A DNA stretch of 64,000 nucleotides, from the NCBI RefSeq assembly GCF_947490405.1, contig NZ_CANLGU010000001.1:434001-498000 (forward strand), read 5' to 3'. The stretch's first letter is position 1. Every line of letters starts with the position of its first letter. The notes under the pieces were generated by a model that did not search any database, had not been told where the DNA came from, and worked only from the letters and a program-made list of their open reading frames with translations. Positions 19,632 to 25,055 of this stretch are shown piece by piece. A program made the position numbers and the translations under genes. Source of the DNA: an uncultured Algibacter sp. GTDB taxonomy: Bacteria; Bacteroidota; Bacteroidia; Flavobacteriales; Flavobacteriaceae.

Positions 19632-19659
19632 TAAACTTTCAATAATTATTGAAAGTTTA
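19632..19659. promoter_or_regulatory. 28-bp perfect palindrome, operator 1 of the GbsR-type regulator
   Basis: The site is a perfect palindrome with the core AACTTTCA-N8-TGAAAGTT. It ends 23 bases before the start of the GbsR/MarR-type gene, and its right arm contains the -33 TTG of the predicted promoter. A second site with the same arms and same spacing lies after that gene, which strongly suggests one dimeric regulator. Confidence 0.8.
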
Positions 19660-19678
19660 GAAATTGTTTATATCTTTG
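19649..19678 (+). promoter_or_regulatory. Promoter of the GbsR-type regulator gene
   Basis: TTG (19649-19651), a 19-base spacer and TATCTTTG (19671-19678) fit the flavobacterial consensus exactly. The ATG follows 4 bases later, so the transcript should be nearly leaderless. The -33 box lies inside the palindromic operator. Confidence 0.7.
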
Positions 19679-19682
19679 TGGT

Positions 19683-20186
19683 ATGGAATATCAAGAAGCA
19701 AAAGAAAAATTTATAAGTACTTGGGGAAGTTTGGGAACCTTATGGGGTATTAATAAAGCGATGGCACAGATACAGGCGCTCCTTTTTATTTCAACAAAAC
19801 CATTATCTATGGAAGAGGTTATGGAGGAATTAAAGATTTCTAGAGGTAATACAAGTATGAATTTACGTCAGTTAATGGATTGGGGTATTGTAACTAAAGA
19901 AATCGTTCGTGGAGAGCGCAAAGAGTTTTTTACTACTGAAAAAGATGTACAAGAACTGGCAAGAATAGTTGCCAAAGAACGAAGCCGAAGAGAAATAAAA
20001 CCTGTTATTAAAGTTCTGGAAGAAGTTAGCTCTATTAAAGATGACGGCACAGAAAAAACTAAAGAATTGATAAAACAAACCAAAGCATTAAAAGACCTAA
20101 CTGACGATTTAGATACTTTAATGAATAAACTTGTAAACCAAAAACAAAATTGGCTAACAAAGTCTGTTTTTAAATTGATGAAGTAA
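19683..20186 (+). CDS. GbsR/MarR-family transcriptional regulator
   Basis: This 167-aa protein has a winged-helix domain (about 25-80). It opens with a GbsR-like stretch (FISTWGSLGTLWGINKAMAQ), the recognition region is ISRGNTSMNLRQLMDWG, and the wing is VRGERKEFF. The C-terminal half (about 95-160) is helical and charged and probably dimerises. GbsR is a choline-responsive repressor in Bacillus, but flavobacterial relatives are mostly uncharacterised. Identical inverted repeats lie just before and just after the gene, so it likely represses itself and the downstream five-gene operon. The ligand is unknown. Confidence 0.88.
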   Translation: MEYQEAKEKFISTWGSLGTLWGINKAMAQIQALLFISTKPLSMEEVMEELKISRGNTSMNLRQLMDWGIVTKEIVRGERKEFFTTEKDVQELARIVAKERSRREIKPVIKVLEEVSSIKDDGTEKTKELIKQTKALKDLTDDLDTLMNKLVNQKQNWLTKSVFKLMK

Positions 20187-20205
20187 ATAAATTTTTTTTA
20201 ATTAC

Positions 20206-20229
20206 AACTTTCAATATTTTCTGAAAGTT
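20206..20229. promoter_or_regulatory. Operator 2 of the GbsR-type regulator
   Basis: AACTTTCA (20206-20213) and TGAAAGTT (20222-20229) are perfect arms with an 8-base spacer. This is the same arm sequence and spacing as operator 1, while the spacers differ (ATAATTAT versus ATATTTTC). It lies between the regulator and the DoxX-like gene, 14 bases before its ATG. Confidence 0.78.
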
Positions 20230-20243
20230 TAAAATAAAAATAC

Positions 20244-20633
20244 ATGAAAAACATAATAAATATTATCATTGCTCTTATTTGGTTTATTAATGGATTACTA
20301 TGCAAAGTTTTAAATCTGGTTCCTAGACATCAAAAGATAGTTTCAGAAATCACTAATTCTAAATATTCTAGAGAACTAACAATTGCAATTGGAATTCTAG
20401 AGATACTTATGTGTTTTTGGATTTTAAGTAAAAATCAACCAAGACTTAATGCCATTATTCAAATAATAATTATTGCATCAATGAACATTTTAGAATTCAT
20501 TATGACTCCACACTTATTAATGTGGGGAAGGCTCAATAGTGTCTTTGCACTTCTATTAATTCTATTTATTTACTTAACTAGTTTTCATTTTAATAACATC
20601 TTCAAAACTAACGATTATGCTTTCAAATCTTAA
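20244..20633 (+). CDS. DoxX-like small membrane protein
   Basis: This 129-aa protein consists of four hydrophobic helices (about 3-22, 44-62, 71-90, 95-113), with features of the DoxX-like family such as IALIWFINGLLCKVLN near the start. Related proteins are often found with redox or membrane-modification genes, but their function is unclear. The gene starts the operon behind operator 2, and its end overlaps the DUF2071 gene by 17 bases, which points to coupled translation. Confidence 0.7.
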   Translation: MKNIINIIIALIWFINGLLCKVLNLVPRHQKIVSEITNSKYSRELTIAIGILEILMCFWILSKNQPRLNAIIQIIIIASMNILEFIMTPHLLMWGRLNSVFALLLILFIYLTSFHFNNIFKTNDYAFKS

Positions 20634-21342
20634 AAAACATCCGTTTACGGTAGAGGCATTCTTTAAAAGCTCTATCGTTTTAACCTTTGCAGTACCAAAA
20701 CAAGAACTGGAGGCTTTAATTCCTGAATGTTTAGAACTAGATACATTCAATAATAAATGGTCTTTCATTGCTGTTGCTATGGTTCAAACTAAAAACATTA
20801 GACCTAAAGGATTTCCTGCCTGTTTTGGAAATGACTTATTCTTAATTGGGTATCGCATTTTTGTTCGCTATAAGACAGAAAAAGGAAAACGTTTGAGAGG
20901 TTTATATATTTTAAAGTCGGAGACAGATAAAAAAAGGATGGCTTTTGCTGGAAACCTGTTTACGCATTACAACTATACATCTACAGATATAAGTTGTAAG
21001 GATGAAGAGATAAATTCAATAAAATCAAATTTCAAAATCAAACTAAATTCTAAAAGACGCAACATTACATTGCCAAATCAATCTCCTTTTTCAAATTTGA
21101 AAGAAGCTAGAAGGTTTGCAGGACCTTTGCCATTTACATTCACTTACAATGAAGGCAAAAAAGAAGTTTTAATTATTGAGGGTGTGAGACAAAACTGGAA
21201 ACCCAATCCTGTACATGTTGAATATTACAATATCGCATTCTTAGACGAATTAAAGTTAAAAGATATTGTTCTGGCAAATGCATTCAAAATTAATAACATT
21301 CCGTATTACTGGAAAAAAGGTAGAATAGACTTATGGAACTAA
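20617..21342 (+). CDS. DUF2071 (YqjF-like) protein
   Basis: This 241-aa soluble protein has the DUF2071/acetoacetate-decarboxylase-like pattern: an N-terminal VEAFFKSSIVLTFAVPKQELEALIP, then FLIGYRIFVRYKTEKGKRLRGLYIL. The cofactor and substrate of this family are not established. Frames overlap with the genes on both sides (17 and 10 bases), which is strong evidence for an operon. Confidence 0.72.
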   Translation: MLSNLKKHPFTVEAFFKSSIVLTFAVPKQELEALIPECLELDTFNNKWSFIAVAMVQTKNIRPKGFPACFGNDLFLIGYRIFVRYKTEKGKRLRGLYILKSETDKKRMAFAGNLFTHYNYTSTDISCKDEEINSIKSNFKIKLNSKRRNITLPNQSPFSNLKEARRFAGPLPFTFTYNEGKKEVLIIEGVRQNWKPNPVHVEYYNIAFLDELKLKDIVLANAFKINNIPYYWKKGRIDLWN

Positions 21343-22079
21343 AAAGAAAACCATTTCAGGGTGTGCTAAACATCCTGAGTTTTAACCGTCATTTTTATGT
21401 GATAGGATTAAGTATAATTGCATTACTTTTATTAAGCAAGCTTTTATTTGATTGGAATAATATATTGTTTTGGGTAATCATTATTTCATTCTTATACGGT
21501 TTAATTATGCCTTTGATTGTATCGGCTTATGTTTATGATTTTTCTGGGTATTATGATTTTAAATGGCTTGAGCATTTGAATATTACAAATTCGAACCACC
21601 ACATTGTTAATATCAATGCAGGATTTGATGAAACAAGCTTTATTTTAAAAAGTAATTTTCCAAATGCTAATTTGCAAGTTTTTGACTTTTATAATTCTGA
21701 AAAGCACACAGAAGCAGCCATAGTTAGAGCAAGAAAAGTTAGTTTAGTTTATCCTAAGACTAAACAGATTAGCACTAATACTATTCCTTTAGAAAATAAA
21801 TCTGTTGATATGGTTTTTCTTTTATCTGCCGCTCATGAAATCAGGTCCTTTGAGGAGAAAGTCTTATTTTTAAAAGAATGTAAACGCATCTGCAAACCTG
21901 ATGCACATGTAATTTTAGTTGAACATTTAAGAGATATTCCAAACTTCTTAGCTTTCTCCATTGGCTTTACACACTTTTTCTCAAAACAAACATGGATAAA
22001 CGCATTTAAAAGTGCTGGTTTTAAATCGTTTACTGAAACTAAATTCACTCATTTTATGTCTATATTAAAATTTAACTAG
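21333..22079 (+). CDS. Membrane-anchored class I methyltransferase-like protein
   Basis: This 248-aa protein has two N-terminal transmembrane helices (about 21-37 and 44-65) followed by a methyltransferase-like domain. The usual SAM-binding glycine motif is degenerate (VNINAGFDE in place of a DxGxGxG form). Later strands fit the fold: VDMVFLLSAAHEI as motif II region and ICKPDAHVILVEH as motif III. It may act on a membrane substrate or have lost catalysis. It starts inside the DUF2071 gene and lies 5 bases before the next gene. Confidence 0.7.
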   Translation: MELKRKPFQGVLNILSFNRHFYVIGLSIIALLLLSKLLFDWNNILFWVIIISFLYGLIMPLIVSAYVYDFSGYYDFKWLEHLNITNSNHHIVNINAGFDETSFILKSNFPNANLQVFDFYNSEKHTEAAIVRARKVSLVYPKTKQISTNTIPLENKSVDMVFLLSAAHEIRSFEEKVLFLKECKRICKPDAHVILVEHLRDIPNFLAFSIGFTHFFSKQTWINAFKSAGFKSFTETKFTHFMSILKFN

Positions 22080-22084
22080 AAACG

Positions 22085-22480
22085 ATGACTTTACATATAC
22101 AAATAATTGGCTATATACTAATTGCACTAGCATTAATTCATACTACATTCCCTAAATATTTTAATTGGAAAATGGAGCTAAAATCGCTGAGTTTAATAAA
22201 CAAACAAATGTTTAAGGTTCATACTTTTTTTATAGCACTCACAGTTTTACTAATGGGTATACTTTGTGTCATTTCATATGAATCATTAGTAACAACAAAT
22301 CTTGGTAAAACCTTGTGTTTAGGATTTGGTCTATTTTGGTTAATACGCTTAATATTCCAGCTTTTTGTTTACTCTTCAAAATTATGGAAAGGAAAAAAAT
22401 TTGAAACTATTGTACACATCTTCTTCATCTTACTTTGGGTATACCTATTTGTTATATTTACTGTCATTTATATAAACTAG
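22085..22480 (+). CDS. Hypothetical four-helix membrane protein
   Basis: I do not recognise this 131-aa protein. It has four predicted transmembrane segments (about 5-22, 47-66, 75-96, 106-128) and basic loops between them. A short HTTFPKYFNWKMEL loop follows helix 1. Its position between two methyltransferase genes, with gaps of 5 and 6 bases, makes it part of the same operon, perhaps a membrane partner of the enzymes. Confidence 0.7.
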   Translation: MTLHIQIIGYILIALALIHTTFPKYFNWKMELKSLSLINKQMFKVHTFFIALTVLLMGILCVISYESLVTTNLGKTLCLGFGLFWLIRLIFQLFVYSSKLWKGKKFETIVHIFFILLWVYLFVIFTVIYIN

Positions 22481-22486
22481 TTTGCT

Positions 22487-23350
22487 ATGAAAACAACTGT
22501 TTTAAATATCAAAAATAATCGCATAGAAATGATTGATTTCTATAACGAAGCTACTGAAGATTATAAATTCTGGAGTAAAGACTTCAACATGCATTTTGGA
22601 TATTTTGTGCCATTTAGAACAAATCCTTTTAAACGTGATTCTATGCTAAACCAAATGAATGCTCAGATGATTAAGCGTTTGAATATTGGAACATCAAAAC
22701 ACAGATTGGTAGATTTAGGTTGCGGCATGGGTGGAACCATGAGGCATGTTTTAAAAACATATAAGAATGTAATTGCTTATGGTGTTACACTTTCCGATTT
22801 TCAAGTAAAACACGGCAACATGTTATTAAAAGGAGAAAACGGAATTATTCTTAAAGAAAACTACAACAAAACATCATTTACATACAACTCTTTCAACTCT
22901 GCTGTAGCCATAGAAAGTTTTTGTCATTCTGGTCATAATGACAATTCAATTAAAGAAGCACACAGAATATTAAAACCTGGAGGTATACTGATTATTGCAG
23001 ATGCTTTTCTTAAGAAGAACGTACCAGAACTCTGTAAAGGCAGCAAATATGCCTACAATAAACTATGCAACCACTGGAGCTTAGAGAAATTAGAGACTAT
23101 TGATAACATGATTGAAAAAATAAAAAGTTTCGGGTTCAAAAATGTAAAAATTGAAAATGCTTCATTTAAAGTTGCCCCTTCTGTTCTTCACGTTCCATTT
23201 GCAATTACAGGATTTATATTAAAAAAGATTTTGAGCTTTAAACCCATAAAACAGGAAAGTTTTCACAATCTAAAAGGGTCTTTTTACGCCTTATTATCTG
23301 GATTGCATTTCAAAAGTTTTGGGTACTACATTATTTCAGCCACAAAATAG
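22487..23350 (+). CDS. SAM-dependent methyltransferase, small-molecule or lipid type
   Basis: This 287-aa soluble class I methyltransferase has a complete motif I (VDLGCGMGG, about 75-83). It also has YGVTLSDFQVKHG as the SAM-ribose region and a GGILIIADAFL strand. The N-terminal FYNEATEDYKFW and the overall layout resemble enzymes acting on tocopherol/quinone heads, sterols or other small hydrophobic molecules. The substrate cannot be read. It is the last gene of the GbsR-type operon. Confidence 0.8.
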   Translation: MKTTVLNIKNNRIEMIDFYNEATEDYKFWSKDFNMHFGYFVPFRTNPFKRDSMLNQMNAQMIKRLNIGTSKHRLVDLGCGMGGTMRHVLKTYKNVIAYGVTLSDFQVKHGNMLLKGENGIILKENYNKTSFTYNSFNSAVAIESFCHSGHNDNSIKEAHRILKPGGILIIADAFLKKNVPELCKGSKYAYNKLCNHWSLEKLETIDNMIEKIKSFGFKNVKIENASFKVAPSVLHVPFAITGFILKKILSFKPIKQESFHNLKGSFYALLSGLHFKSFGYYIISATK

Positions 23351-23428: not shown

Positions 23429-23980
23429 ATGCCCGACCACAAAATTGATCCAAACAAATGGATAGACTTATATTCTGACTACCTCTTTAATTATACCATT
23501 ACGCGTGTAAGTGACCGAGAGATTGCTCAGGACTTAGTTCAAGAAACTTTTTTAGCTGGTTTAAAGTCAATGAAAAATTTTAAAGGAGAAGCCAGTGAGC
23601 GCACATGGCTTATTTCTATTTTAAAGCGAAAAATAATTGACCATTACCGTAAAATTAATTCTAATAAAGGAAAAGCTGAAGTAAGAATAAATTATAATGA
23701 TGCTGAAAGCGAAGGTGATTGGCTTGAAGAGCGTGTTGCAGACCCTTTTGATAAAACAGCAGAAGATACTCTGCAAAATAACGAATTGGGAGATGCTATA
23801 CATAACTGTTTAAGTAAATTACCACAAAAACAAGCTGACGTTTTTAAAATGAAGACCATTTTAAATCATGAAACTGAAGCAATTTGTAATGAATTAAATA
23901 TTACAGCGTCTAATCTATGGGTAATTATCCATAGAGCAAGAACAGCTATGGCAGATTGCCTTAAAGCAAATTGGTTTTAA
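23429..23980 (+). CDS. ECF-type RNA polymerase sigma factor
   Basis: This 183-aa sigma-70 family protein has region 2 (about 15-85) with AQDLVQETFLAGLKSM and the -10-binding stretch RTWLISILKRKIIDHYRK. Region 4 (about 125-180) has LSKLPQKQADVFKMK and a helix-turn-helix ending LWVIIHRARTAM. A linker joins the two. It is followed 3 bases later by a small zinc-finger protein, the usual arrangement of an ECF sigma with its anti-sigma. The signal is unknown. Confidence 0.92.
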   Translation: MPDHKIDPNKWIDLYSDYLFNYTITRVSDREIAQDLVQETFLAGLKSMKNFKGEASERTWLISILKRKIIDHYRKINSNKGKAEVRINYNDAESEGDWLEERVADPFDKTAEDTLQNNELGDAIHNCLSKLPQKQADVFKMKTILNHETEAICNELNITASNLWVIIHRARTAMADCLKANWF

Positions 23981-23983
23981 GCT

Positions 23984-24247
23984 ATGAATAAAAAAAATAA
24001 AATATTTATACCGTGTGATGAAGCAAATCATGTATGTGATAAAAATCAATACAAAGAAGCATCATTGTGGGAATTGATTAAATTAAATGTACATTTAATT
24101 TATTGCAAAGCCTGTAGAAAATATACAGTAAATAACACAAAACTCACCAAAGCAATTAAAAAAGGGGAGGTTGAATATCTTGATACTTCAACAAAAAGTG
24201 ATATGAAAAAAGAGTTTGAAAAAGCTCTAAATGACGTTTCTAATTAA
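23984..24247 (+). CDS. Small ZAS-like anti-sigma factor without membrane anchor
   Basis: This 87-aa protein has the zinc-binding pattern Hx3Cx2C (H37-C41-C44), preceded by Cys/His residues (C11, H16, C18), as in ZAS anti-sigma domains. No transmembrane segment follows, so it should work in the cytosol. Redox-sensitive soluble ZAS proteins of this kind are known in other groups. It is cotranscribed with the sigma gene, and its 3' end overlaps the convergent UbiA-like gene by 8 bases. Confidence 0.75.
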   Translation: MNKKNKIFIPCDEANHVCDKNQYKEASLWELIKLNVHLIYCKACRKYTVNNTKLTKAIKKGEVEYLDTSTKSDMKKEFEKALNDVSN

Positions 24248-25055
24248 AATATAACATAAAAATCAGCCAAAGAATCGGCAAACTTTCTACCCAAAACGCA
24301 CTATAATATTTGTTTTGTTCAATCTTACAAAAACAAACAAACAGTGCTGCAATAACGCATATCGTAAATAAAATTACAATAGAGATTAAAACAGTTTCAT
24401 CTTTTAAAAATTCTAACAAAAAAAATACAATAAGAATTGTAATACCTAATAATTTAGTATTTCTTAAACCTAACTTTTGAGGAAGCGTTGATAATGCTAC
24501 ACTATCAAATTTCAAGTCTCTTATTTCAAAAGGTAACATTAGTACAACTACAAATAAAAAACGCTGAATTGCTAATAACACAACATCCGTATTGATCTTA
24601 TAATCCAAGGCAATCAAAGGCAAAAAAACTGTTACTCCTGTCCATACCAAAGCAATAATATAAACTTTTAGTCCACCAATAGTTCTTAGCGTACTTTTTT
24701 TTGATAATAGTGGTATAGCATAAAAGAAAGTAATTACTGCTAAGCATAAATTAAAAACATGAGCTTTTAAAGGTAATTGTGTGGCATAAAAACACATCAA
24801 AACAAAACAAACAAAAGACAGTATTTGAATTAATTTAAGCCAATTAGCAAGTTGTCTATGATGAAATTTTGCAATAGCAAAATACTTTACAAAATTGTAA
24901 CCTGTAATTGAGGCATAAAACACAAAATATAACACCGACTCCATGTAACTTAAATCTAAACTTAAAAGCGTAATCCATGTTAATGAAAATACAGACAAAG
25001 CCACATGAATACTACTATTTATGTAAAAATTAAAAAGGCGTCTCAAAAATGTCAT
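24240..25055 (-). CDS. UbiA-like polytopic membrane protein with degenerate active site
   Basis: This 271-aa protein has about eight or nine hydrophobic segments and resembles the UbiA prenyltransferase superfamily. The second Asp-rich motif is partly kept (D180-LKF-D184), but the first one, normally NDxxDxxxD, appears as GYNFVKYF with no Asp. Prenyl transfer is therefore doubtful. A -7-like TACTTTTG ends 4 bases before the ATG. It is convergent with the anti-sigma gene. Confidence 0.6.
   Translation of the reverse strand: MTFLRRLFNFYINSSIHVALSVFSLTWITLLSLDLSYMESVLYFVFYASITGYNFVKYFAIAKFHHRQLANWLKLIQILSFVCFVLMCFYATQLPLKAHVFNLCLAVITFFYAIPLLSKKSTLRTIGGLKVYIIALVWTGVTVFLPLIALDYKINTDVVLLAIQRFLFVVVLMLPFEIRDLKFDSVALSTLPQKLGLRNTKLLGITILIVFFLLEFLKDETVLISIVILFTICVIAALFVCFCKIEQNKYYSAFWVESLPILWLIFMLYFN

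Follow-up and report, generated by a model that had tools for sequence, protein, structure and literature searches.

Whether a regulator gene and the five genes packed behind it form one dedicated system is the question raised by a locus in a 64,000-nucleotide stretch of an uncultured Algibacter sp. genome (Flavobacteriaceae, phylum Bacteroidota; contig NZ_CANLGU010000001.1, positions 434,001 to 498,000), called the window here. A GbsR-type regulator gene is bracketed there by two operator-like sites and followed by genes for a DoxX-like membrane protein (DoxX), a DUF2071 protein, a membrane-anchored protein of methyltransferase fold (memMT), a four-helix membrane protein (TM4) and an ordinary methyltransferase (MT). 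An earlier note, made from the sequence alone, had taken the regulator and all five genes for one inducible membrane-methylation system. As corrected here, the locus is read as a conserved regulatory dock that now holds an independent four-gene membrane cassette (DoxX-DUF2071-memMT-TM4, the core) together with an accessory methyltransferase, not as one dedicated five-gene system. The features discussed below, in window coordinates, are as follows.

19632–19659, no strand: operator A, a 28-bp perfect palindrome whose core is the exact site at 19634–19657, overlapping a putative −33 box
19671–19678, plus strand: putative −7 element TATCTTTG of the gbsR promoter, taken to be of Bacteroidota type
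19683–20186, plus strand: GbsR-type (MarR superfamily) regulator, 167 aa (Pfam MarR_2, E 1.5e-8)
20206–20229, no strand: operator B, lying after the gbsR stop codon and ahead of the first cargo gene
20244–20633, plus strand: DoxX_3 membrane protein, core gene 1 (Pfam DoxX_3, E 5.9e-15, 56.1 bits, cut-off 25)
20617–21342, plus strand: DUF2071 protein, core gene 2 (Pfam, E 5.7e-14, 52.7 bits, cut-off 27)
21333–22079, plus strand: memMT, core gene 3, membrane-anchored methyltransferase-fold protein with motif I NINAGFDETS
22085–22480, plus strand: TM4, core gene 4, four-helix membrane protein with invariant His19, His46, Arg88 and His111
22487–23350, plus strand: MT, ordinary class I methyltransferase (CMAS-like), accessory cargo (Methyltransf_11, E 9.4e-12; CMAS, E 3.6e-10)

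The regulator and its twin operators

The regulator profile matches MJ223 (PDB 1ku9), the template of GbsR models, over profile positions 3–149 with an E value of 9.7e-24, and the protein has the MarR-type winged helix and the MJ223-like C-terminal dimerisation part of that family. It is not recognised by the equivalog model of the choline-responsive CudC (NF047500), scoring 52.9 bits against a cut-off of 218. The bracketing of the regulator by two sites with identical arms and an eight-base spacer, described in the earlier note, was recovered exactly, with one AACTTTCA-N8-TGAAAGTT site on each side of gbsR, at 19634–19657 and 20206–20229. Equally sound was the description of the 28-bp palindrome as lying over the putative −33 box of the promoter: its right arm overlaps the TTG at 19649–19651, which is 19 bases from TATCTTTG, and the gbsR start codon follows at 19683. 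TTG and TATCTTTG are named −33 and −7 boxes, putatively, after the Bacteroidota promoter consensus. The layout at operator A supports the reading of the regulator as a putative repressor that shuts its own promoter.

The two window sites are the sole exact copies of the operator in their own genome. When up to two mismatches were allowed, the genome contained seven places (two exact and five with two mismatches) compared to nine for a reversed-pattern control, and the two matches found in the window alone at up to three mismatches are not unusual, since at least two were obtained in 58 of 100 shuffles. Because the count in the window is ordinary under shuffling, the weight of the operator evidence lies on exactness and conservation.

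The regulator is present in 29 of 149 genomes of the family, and a genome-wide operator search, suggested in the earlier note as a check, was run on 72 of these 149, the 29 with the regulator and 43 without it. Exact operators were present in 24 of the 29 genomes with GbsR compared to none of the 43 without, those listed all adjoin gbsR, and the reversed-pattern control gave zero matches in all 72 genomes. In five regulator genomes (G015, G028, G077, G118 and G144) an exact operator was not found. Across 37 GbsR loci, operator A was present at up to two mismatches in all 37 and operator B at up to three mismatches in 36, the exception being L201. Among 6822 control windows taken from other parts of the same loci, 7 had up to two mismatches and 20 up to three. 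The sequence TAnnTTTG occurs within 32 bases after operator A in 36 of the 37. The most frequent spacer is ATAATTAT in operator A (14/37 loci) and ATATTTTC in operator B (9/37).

In the wider phylum sample, the regulator profile matched 123 of 395 genomes at 1e-20, many of them distantly. From these, 20 further loci were picked by hand, all of them better-scoring (about 207 bits or more), six in the same family and 14 outside it. Operator A was found at up to three mismatches in 18 of the 20 (exceptions L246 and L255), and operator B, at the same limit, in 13 of the 15 loci with recognised cargo (exceptions L246 and L253) and in none of the five without. The regulator and the twin operators thus appear, from their distribution, to go together across genomes, and the arrangement described in the earlier note is real and exceeds chance expectation.

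Exchangeable cargo and an independent four-gene core

The earlier note had assigned the regulator to the operon behind it, a claim that did not survive comparison with relatives. Strong memMT matches were obtained in 13 of the 149 family genomes, plus one weak match; five of these 13 have no GbsR match, and memMT was matched in only 8 of the 29 regulator genomes and was absent from 21. Twenty of these 21 were taken as loci (G015 was left out), and they retain both operators within the mismatch limits given above, with the same sigma-factor neighbour within the locus in 15. The resulting table of 37 dock loci holds 17 with the core and 20 without it, one of the latter (L161) being cut by a contig end before the cargo.

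The alternative cargo comprises small membrane proteins that occur in pairs (c11) and an Epimerase+DUF1731 protein that we take to be TIGR01777-like, besides weak SRPBCC-type proteins, a DCC1-like protein, fatty acid desaturases, MT, distant relatives of TM4 and DUF2071 proteins of a second kind. The profiles used to recognise cargo (c11, SMP, TM4L, EPI, SRP, SRPB2, FAD, DCC and DUF2071b) were each built from one to few loci, and SMP, accepted at E 0.001, may lump unrelated small membrane proteins. None of the 17 core loci contains c11. The replacement can be followed within the genus: a same-genus genome (G044) shares with the window the flanking peptidase (85% identity), GbsR (85%), MT (72%) and the sigma factor (95%), and carries c11-c11 in place of DoxX-DUF2071-memMT-TM4. 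Three of ten genus genomes have memMT, the window's own included. On a tree of the flanking proteins (28 loci with all three), the minimum number of changes was five for the core, ten for MT and seven for c11. The core was present in none of the 20 further regulator loci, 15 of which contain at least one other recognised cargo family; no recognised family was found in L252, L254, L255, L258 or L259. The regulator is therefore probably not dedicated to one set of genes, and as far as comparison of relatives can tell, regulator, twin operators and flanks stay while the cargo is exchanged.

Two docks showed further peculiarities. In L157, a third operator-like site with one mismatch (L157:7390-7413) follows an extra 92-aa frame and precedes the c11 pair, so that this dock has three operator-like sites. 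In L156 (L156:7865-9358), frame changes and stops interrupt MT, and the epimerase survives only as short open pieces, and the cargo of this dock therefore looks decayed.

The tight packing of the five window genes (overlaps of 17 and 10 bases, gaps of 5 and 6) is as the earlier note gave it, and Pfam recognises MarR_2, DoxX_3, DUF2071 and, twice, Methyltransf_11, leaving the four-helix protein without a family. Joint conservation of the five held for four of them. In 73 core loci from Bacteroidota and Streptomyces plasmids, the window among them (L035, on the same contig as L047, was dropped, and G695 was not included), memMT was present in 73, TM4 in 72, DUF2071 in 72 and DoxX in 67, the last by a hidden Markov model built for this analysis; the regulator was present in 17, and the fifth gene, MT, in just five. 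All four core genes were found in 66 of the 73, and locus maps gave the fixed order DoxX-DUF2071-memMT-TM4. As to the incomplete loci, L082 and L176 begin at a contig end before DoxX, L175 is without DoxX and TM4, L201 is without DUF2071, and the DoxX of L205–L207 was not matched by our own profile, Pfam finding DoxX_3 in L206.

Strong memMT matches were obtained in 13 of the 395 phylum genomes and in 33 of 248 genomes of another order. TM4 adjoins memMT in all 13 phylum genomes, and in seven more the only hit was to a distant TM4 relative. On Streptomyces plasmids, memMT was matched in six records, and no match extended over 80% of its length; the three inspected contain DUF2071-memMT-TM4, preceded in two by an ArsR-type regulator and in one by DoxX and a BtaA-like gene. 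The closest named relative by memMT is an Algibacter, at 85% identity. On a cassette tree of 70 loci, 16 regulator-linked cassettes need two changes; the seventeenth linked locus, L201, from another order and without DUF2071, is outside this tree and may add a third. Since changes in the GbsR link are so few on this tree, the cassette appears to be older than the link. Both trees are quick searches, with open forks at 7 of 25 inner branches (flank tree) and 27 of 67 (cassette tree). By gene order and distribution, the core is a self-contained unit, found mostly without GbsR nearby.

In three phylum-sample genomes (G419, G434 and G442), regulator and core are both present and unlinked. In G419, from another family of the same order, the 500 bases upstream of DoxX contain, as their closest match to the operator, a site with two mismatches and TATCTTTG behind it. 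After this site had been seen, the pattern was loosened to WAYTTTCA-N8-TGAAAGTT, which matches in 8 of 21 genomes and whose single whole-genome match in G419 is the site just upstream of the unlinked core. No operator site was found in five family genomes with the core and without the regulator.

Proteins of the cassette and neighbouring genes

The predicted structure of memMT combines three N-terminal helices with a class I methyltransferase domain (predicted local distance difference test score, pLDDT, 88.7), a Rossmann-like model for which Foldseek returned 877 PDB matches with E values up to 0.001, including 3dh0 at 5.5e-9. The Gly-rich motif I of such enzymes is E/DxGxGxG; memMT has NINAGFDETS instead, and Pfam Methyltransf_11 aligns to it only from position 25 of 95. 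In an alignment of 22 of 29 sequences, the loop after the first strand reads N-I-N-A-G-F-D-E-T-S, with N93, I94, A96, G97, F98, D99, E100, T101 and S102 invariant, and GFDE, HTE, HEIR and EHLRD are invariant in all 22 rows. Over the 73 loci, G[FLYM]DExS was found in 68, HE[IL]R in 73, DFY..HTE in 69 and EHLRD in 62, and the loop in the Streptomyces plasmids is TGLDExS. S-adenosylmethionine (SAM) methyltransferases such as 3dh0 can be aligned with the C-terminal half of memMT, HE[IL]R and the strand after it included, and the acid after strand 2 is kept; in plant O-methyltransferases, the His corresponding to that of HE[IL]R serves as the general base. With enzymes of the UbiE/COQ5 and plant O-methyltransferase type, memMT thus shares the fold, this acid, the HE motif region and a KPxG-type end, and it gave weak UbiE-type profile matches; it differs from them in its motif I, its N-terminal membrane helices and its fixed partners DUF2071 and TM4. 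What stands of the membrane methyltransferase described in the earlier note is the class I fold as predicted; because the canonical SAM loop is absent, methylation is unproven. One copy, L034:8001-8720, has an in-frame stop near its 3′ end and was left out of the alignment.

The four-helix model of TM4 is confident (pLDDT 90.6), and its best PDB structure match, at E 4.5, is not meaningful. His19, His46, Arg88 and His111 are invariant in 21 rows and, judged from the helix limits, would lie near one membrane face. His46, His111 and LW[KR]G distinguish core TM4 from 11 distant relatives (in L098 a His stands one position on). Such relatives (L092–L098) occur in other Bacteroidota with no memMT or DUF2071 match within the stretches examined. 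A relationship of TM4 to DoxX was considered and rejected, hhalign giving a probability of 5.7. PDB sequence searches returned no match for TM4 or DoxX and only weak ones for DUF2071. The accessible text of PMC4520260 describes DUF2071 (PF09844) as having an acetoacetate-decarboxylase-like fold and lacking the Schiff-base lysine, a statement about the family and not about the window protein. Our protein lies above the Pfam cut-off but weakly so, at 52.7 bits compared to 180 and 188 bits for the second kind of DUF2071 found in some docks. A canonical gene of this second kind follows TM4 in L021:9165-9875 and L023:9181-9936, and the kind is also cargo in core-less docks. MT, with a normal GCGMGG loop, likewise occurs in dock loci without the core.

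Downstream of the cargo, at 23429–24247, lie an extracytoplasmic function (ECF) sigma factor (TIGR02943-like, below cut-off) and a small anti-sigma-type protein (also below cut-off). This pair was rejected as a part of the system, as it flanks many docks with or without the core, and is read as conserved chromosomal context. On the minus strand at 24240–25055 follows a 271-aa membrane protein, a frequent dock neighbour with no Pfam or PDB match, whose C-terminal stretch EIRDLKxD...LPQKLG we take to resemble UbiA prenyltransferases.

Around other copies of the core, a sphingolipid-desaturase-like gene on the minus strand (L084:7873-8877) overlaps the cassette DoxX by four bases, and a Phenol_MetA_deg family protein (L044:6201-6722; 55.4 bits, cut-off 22) lies 122 bases upstream of DoxX. 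Two related genomes have an HTH_11 and WCX regulator on the minus strand upstream of the cassette (L085:8123-9019 and L088:8256-9152); its domains were scanned in L085, the L088 gene is its homologue, and it overlaps DoxX in L085. A BtaA-like (DUF3419) gene lies between DoxX and DUF2071 and overlaps both in a Streptomyces plasmid (L206:3936-4865). A BtaA/betaine-lipid pathway was rejected: PF11899 was matched in 4 of 43 core-bearing genomes tested compared to 0 of 31 others and not in the window's own genome, and the BtaA-like protein matches one plasmid record.

A proposed mechanism, its rivals and its meaning

On balance, we think it probable that the locus is a GbsR-type autorepressor dock with a four-gene membrane cassette, likely to act in the response to stress by modifying a lipid or other membrane-soluble molecule. 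GbsR dimers would block the gbsR promoter at operator A and transcription into the cargo at operator B, and a small ligand would release them from both. The four cargo proteins would then act together in the membrane on one hydrophobic substrate. Catalysis would fall to memMT, anchored in the membrane and built on a methyltransferase fold whose cofactor loop has been remodelled; DUF2071 would be a soluble enzyme working with it, and DoxX and TM4, the latter with its His/Arg cluster on one membrane side, would be partners within the membrane. The outcome would be a modified lipid or other membrane-soluble molecule in response to stress, and other cargo sets would answer the same stimulus. The parts of this proposal differ in strength. 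From the genome comparisons it seems very probable that regulator and operators go together, that their layout is autoregulatory, that the cargo is exchanged and that the core forms a unit, and the combination of repression with ligand release, joint membrane action of the four products and a hydrophobic substrate is put forward tentatively, at a little under an even balance.

Repressors of this kind are known from Bacillus. In the accessible text of PMC6207618 and PMC7396694, GbsR, OpcR and OpuAR belong to the same regulator family as the window protein, and their genes adjoin the target operons, as here. OpcR occludes the −35 region, and GbsR halts transcription as a roadblock placed past the start site (PMC7396694); the former might fit operator A, and the latter is possible for operator B. 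The half-sites are eight bases apart here compared to four in the B. subtilis gbsAB site. Unlike the Bacillus systems, the recognised cargo includes no osmolyte transporter or betaine gene and is exchangeable.

Several observations weigh against the proposal. A clear −33 box was not seen at operator B, so that a second promoter and a roadblock are both possible there. The loosened operator pattern had four further matches, in G442, G289, G512 and G241, that adjoin neither the core nor gbsR, and its reversed control gave one match each in G450 and G301 among the 21 genomes; the pattern alone is therefore unspecific, and the argument from G419 lies in position and promoter layout. In G434 and G442, with both genes unlinked, an operator near the core was not found. 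DoxX was neither recognised nor annotated in the Streptomyces stretches L205 and L207 and may for this reason be dispensable. The SRPBCC-type proteins also counted among alternative cargo score below the Pfam cut-off. The neighbours of the core outside the dock, some read by eye, are varied: those of lipid type are single cases (the sphingolipid-type desaturase in L084, a ketoacyl synthase in L032, an acyltransferase in L046 and the BtaA-like gene in L206), and a peptidoglycan-binding CHAP protein (L025) and the phenol-degradation-type protein of L044, which points towards detoxification, are also found near it. The biochemical role itself is suggested by predicted folds and gene company only.

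That detoxification would be the actual role, with DoxX, DUF2071 and an O-methyltransferase-like memMT handling a quinone-like or electrophilic aromatic toxicant sensed by GbsR, seems unlikely to us. The nearest structures of memMT do include many aromatic-compound O-methyltransferases and Coq5, in line with its UbiE-type matches. YqjF of E. coli is, we assume, a DoxX-family protein. The yqjF promoter responds to nitroaromatics according to the accessible part of PMC10493890, which counts for this explanation, as does the phenol-type neighbour. The latter is a single case, however, and no dioxygenase, azoreductase or drug efflux family was seen among the scanned neighbour and cargo genes, though no dedicated search was made for these families. 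Fatty acid desaturases and epimerases are found in the dock cargo. Since the exchanged cargo contains such desaturases as well as CMAS-like proteins, we prefer the modification of a lipid or membrane molecule to detoxification, but this is a weak pointer. The dedicated inducible lipid-methylation pathway of the earlier note, with regulator and five genes as one system and both methyltransferases acting on a membrane lipid, would agree with the five packed genes behind an operator, the normal loop of CMAS-like MT and the fold of memMT. It was already weakened by the exchange of cargo, and it sits poorly with the absence of the core from 20 of 37 docks (one cut by a contig end), the scarcity of MT among core loci, and the missing SAM loop and truncated Pfam alignment of memMT; we consider it very unlikely.

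A further alternative is compatible with the dock and competes with the proposal on chemistry alone: memMT may not be a methyltransferase and may carry out another SAM reaction or use another cofactor, and TM4 would serve as its redox partner, binding haem or a metal. The conserved N-x-N-A-G-F-D-E-T-S in place of GxGxG, the invariant His and acid residues of memMT, the placing of His19, His46, His111 and Arg88 of TM4 near one membrane face, the failure of His46, His111 and LW[KR]G to align in the distant TM4 relatives and the BtaA-like gene inside one plasmid cassette are consistent with it. The alignment of the C-terminal half of memMT with SAM methyltransferases, the retained acid after strand 2 and the few genomes with BtaA argue against it, and we regard it as a doubtful, minority possibility. 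Returning to the dock proposal, its boldest form is a widespread Bacteroidota plug-in dock with interchangeable membrane or lipid cassettes, one of them, known also from Streptomyces plasmids, encoding a new enzyme class that reuses the methyltransferase fold, with its cofactor loop rebuilt, in a membrane complex with DUF2071 and the His-rich TM4; taken as a whole, this is conceivable without being probable.

The statement of the earlier note that no known pathway can be assigned stands: in the open-access literature, subscription papers not being covered, we found no paper on the core, none joining DUF2071 with DoxX, and none joining DUF2071 with a methyltransferase and an operon. For Bacteroidetes neighbourhoods, a 2018 survey of GbsR proteins reports, in its accessible text, "no consistent picture" (PMC6207618), the differing neighbours having left these members unconnected with any process, and exchange of cargo would account for this. 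The variation would itself be the pattern, with regulator, operators and flanks fixed and the membrane-gene cargo exchanged. Such a dock offers a defined operator with a defined set of targets and a theme common to them. The membrane cassette that it sometimes holds is conserved, comprises three to four genes and occurs in two phyla; its methyltransferase-fold protein has a cofactor loop unlike the standard one. If the reading is true, one stimulus would drive different membrane chemistry in different strains.

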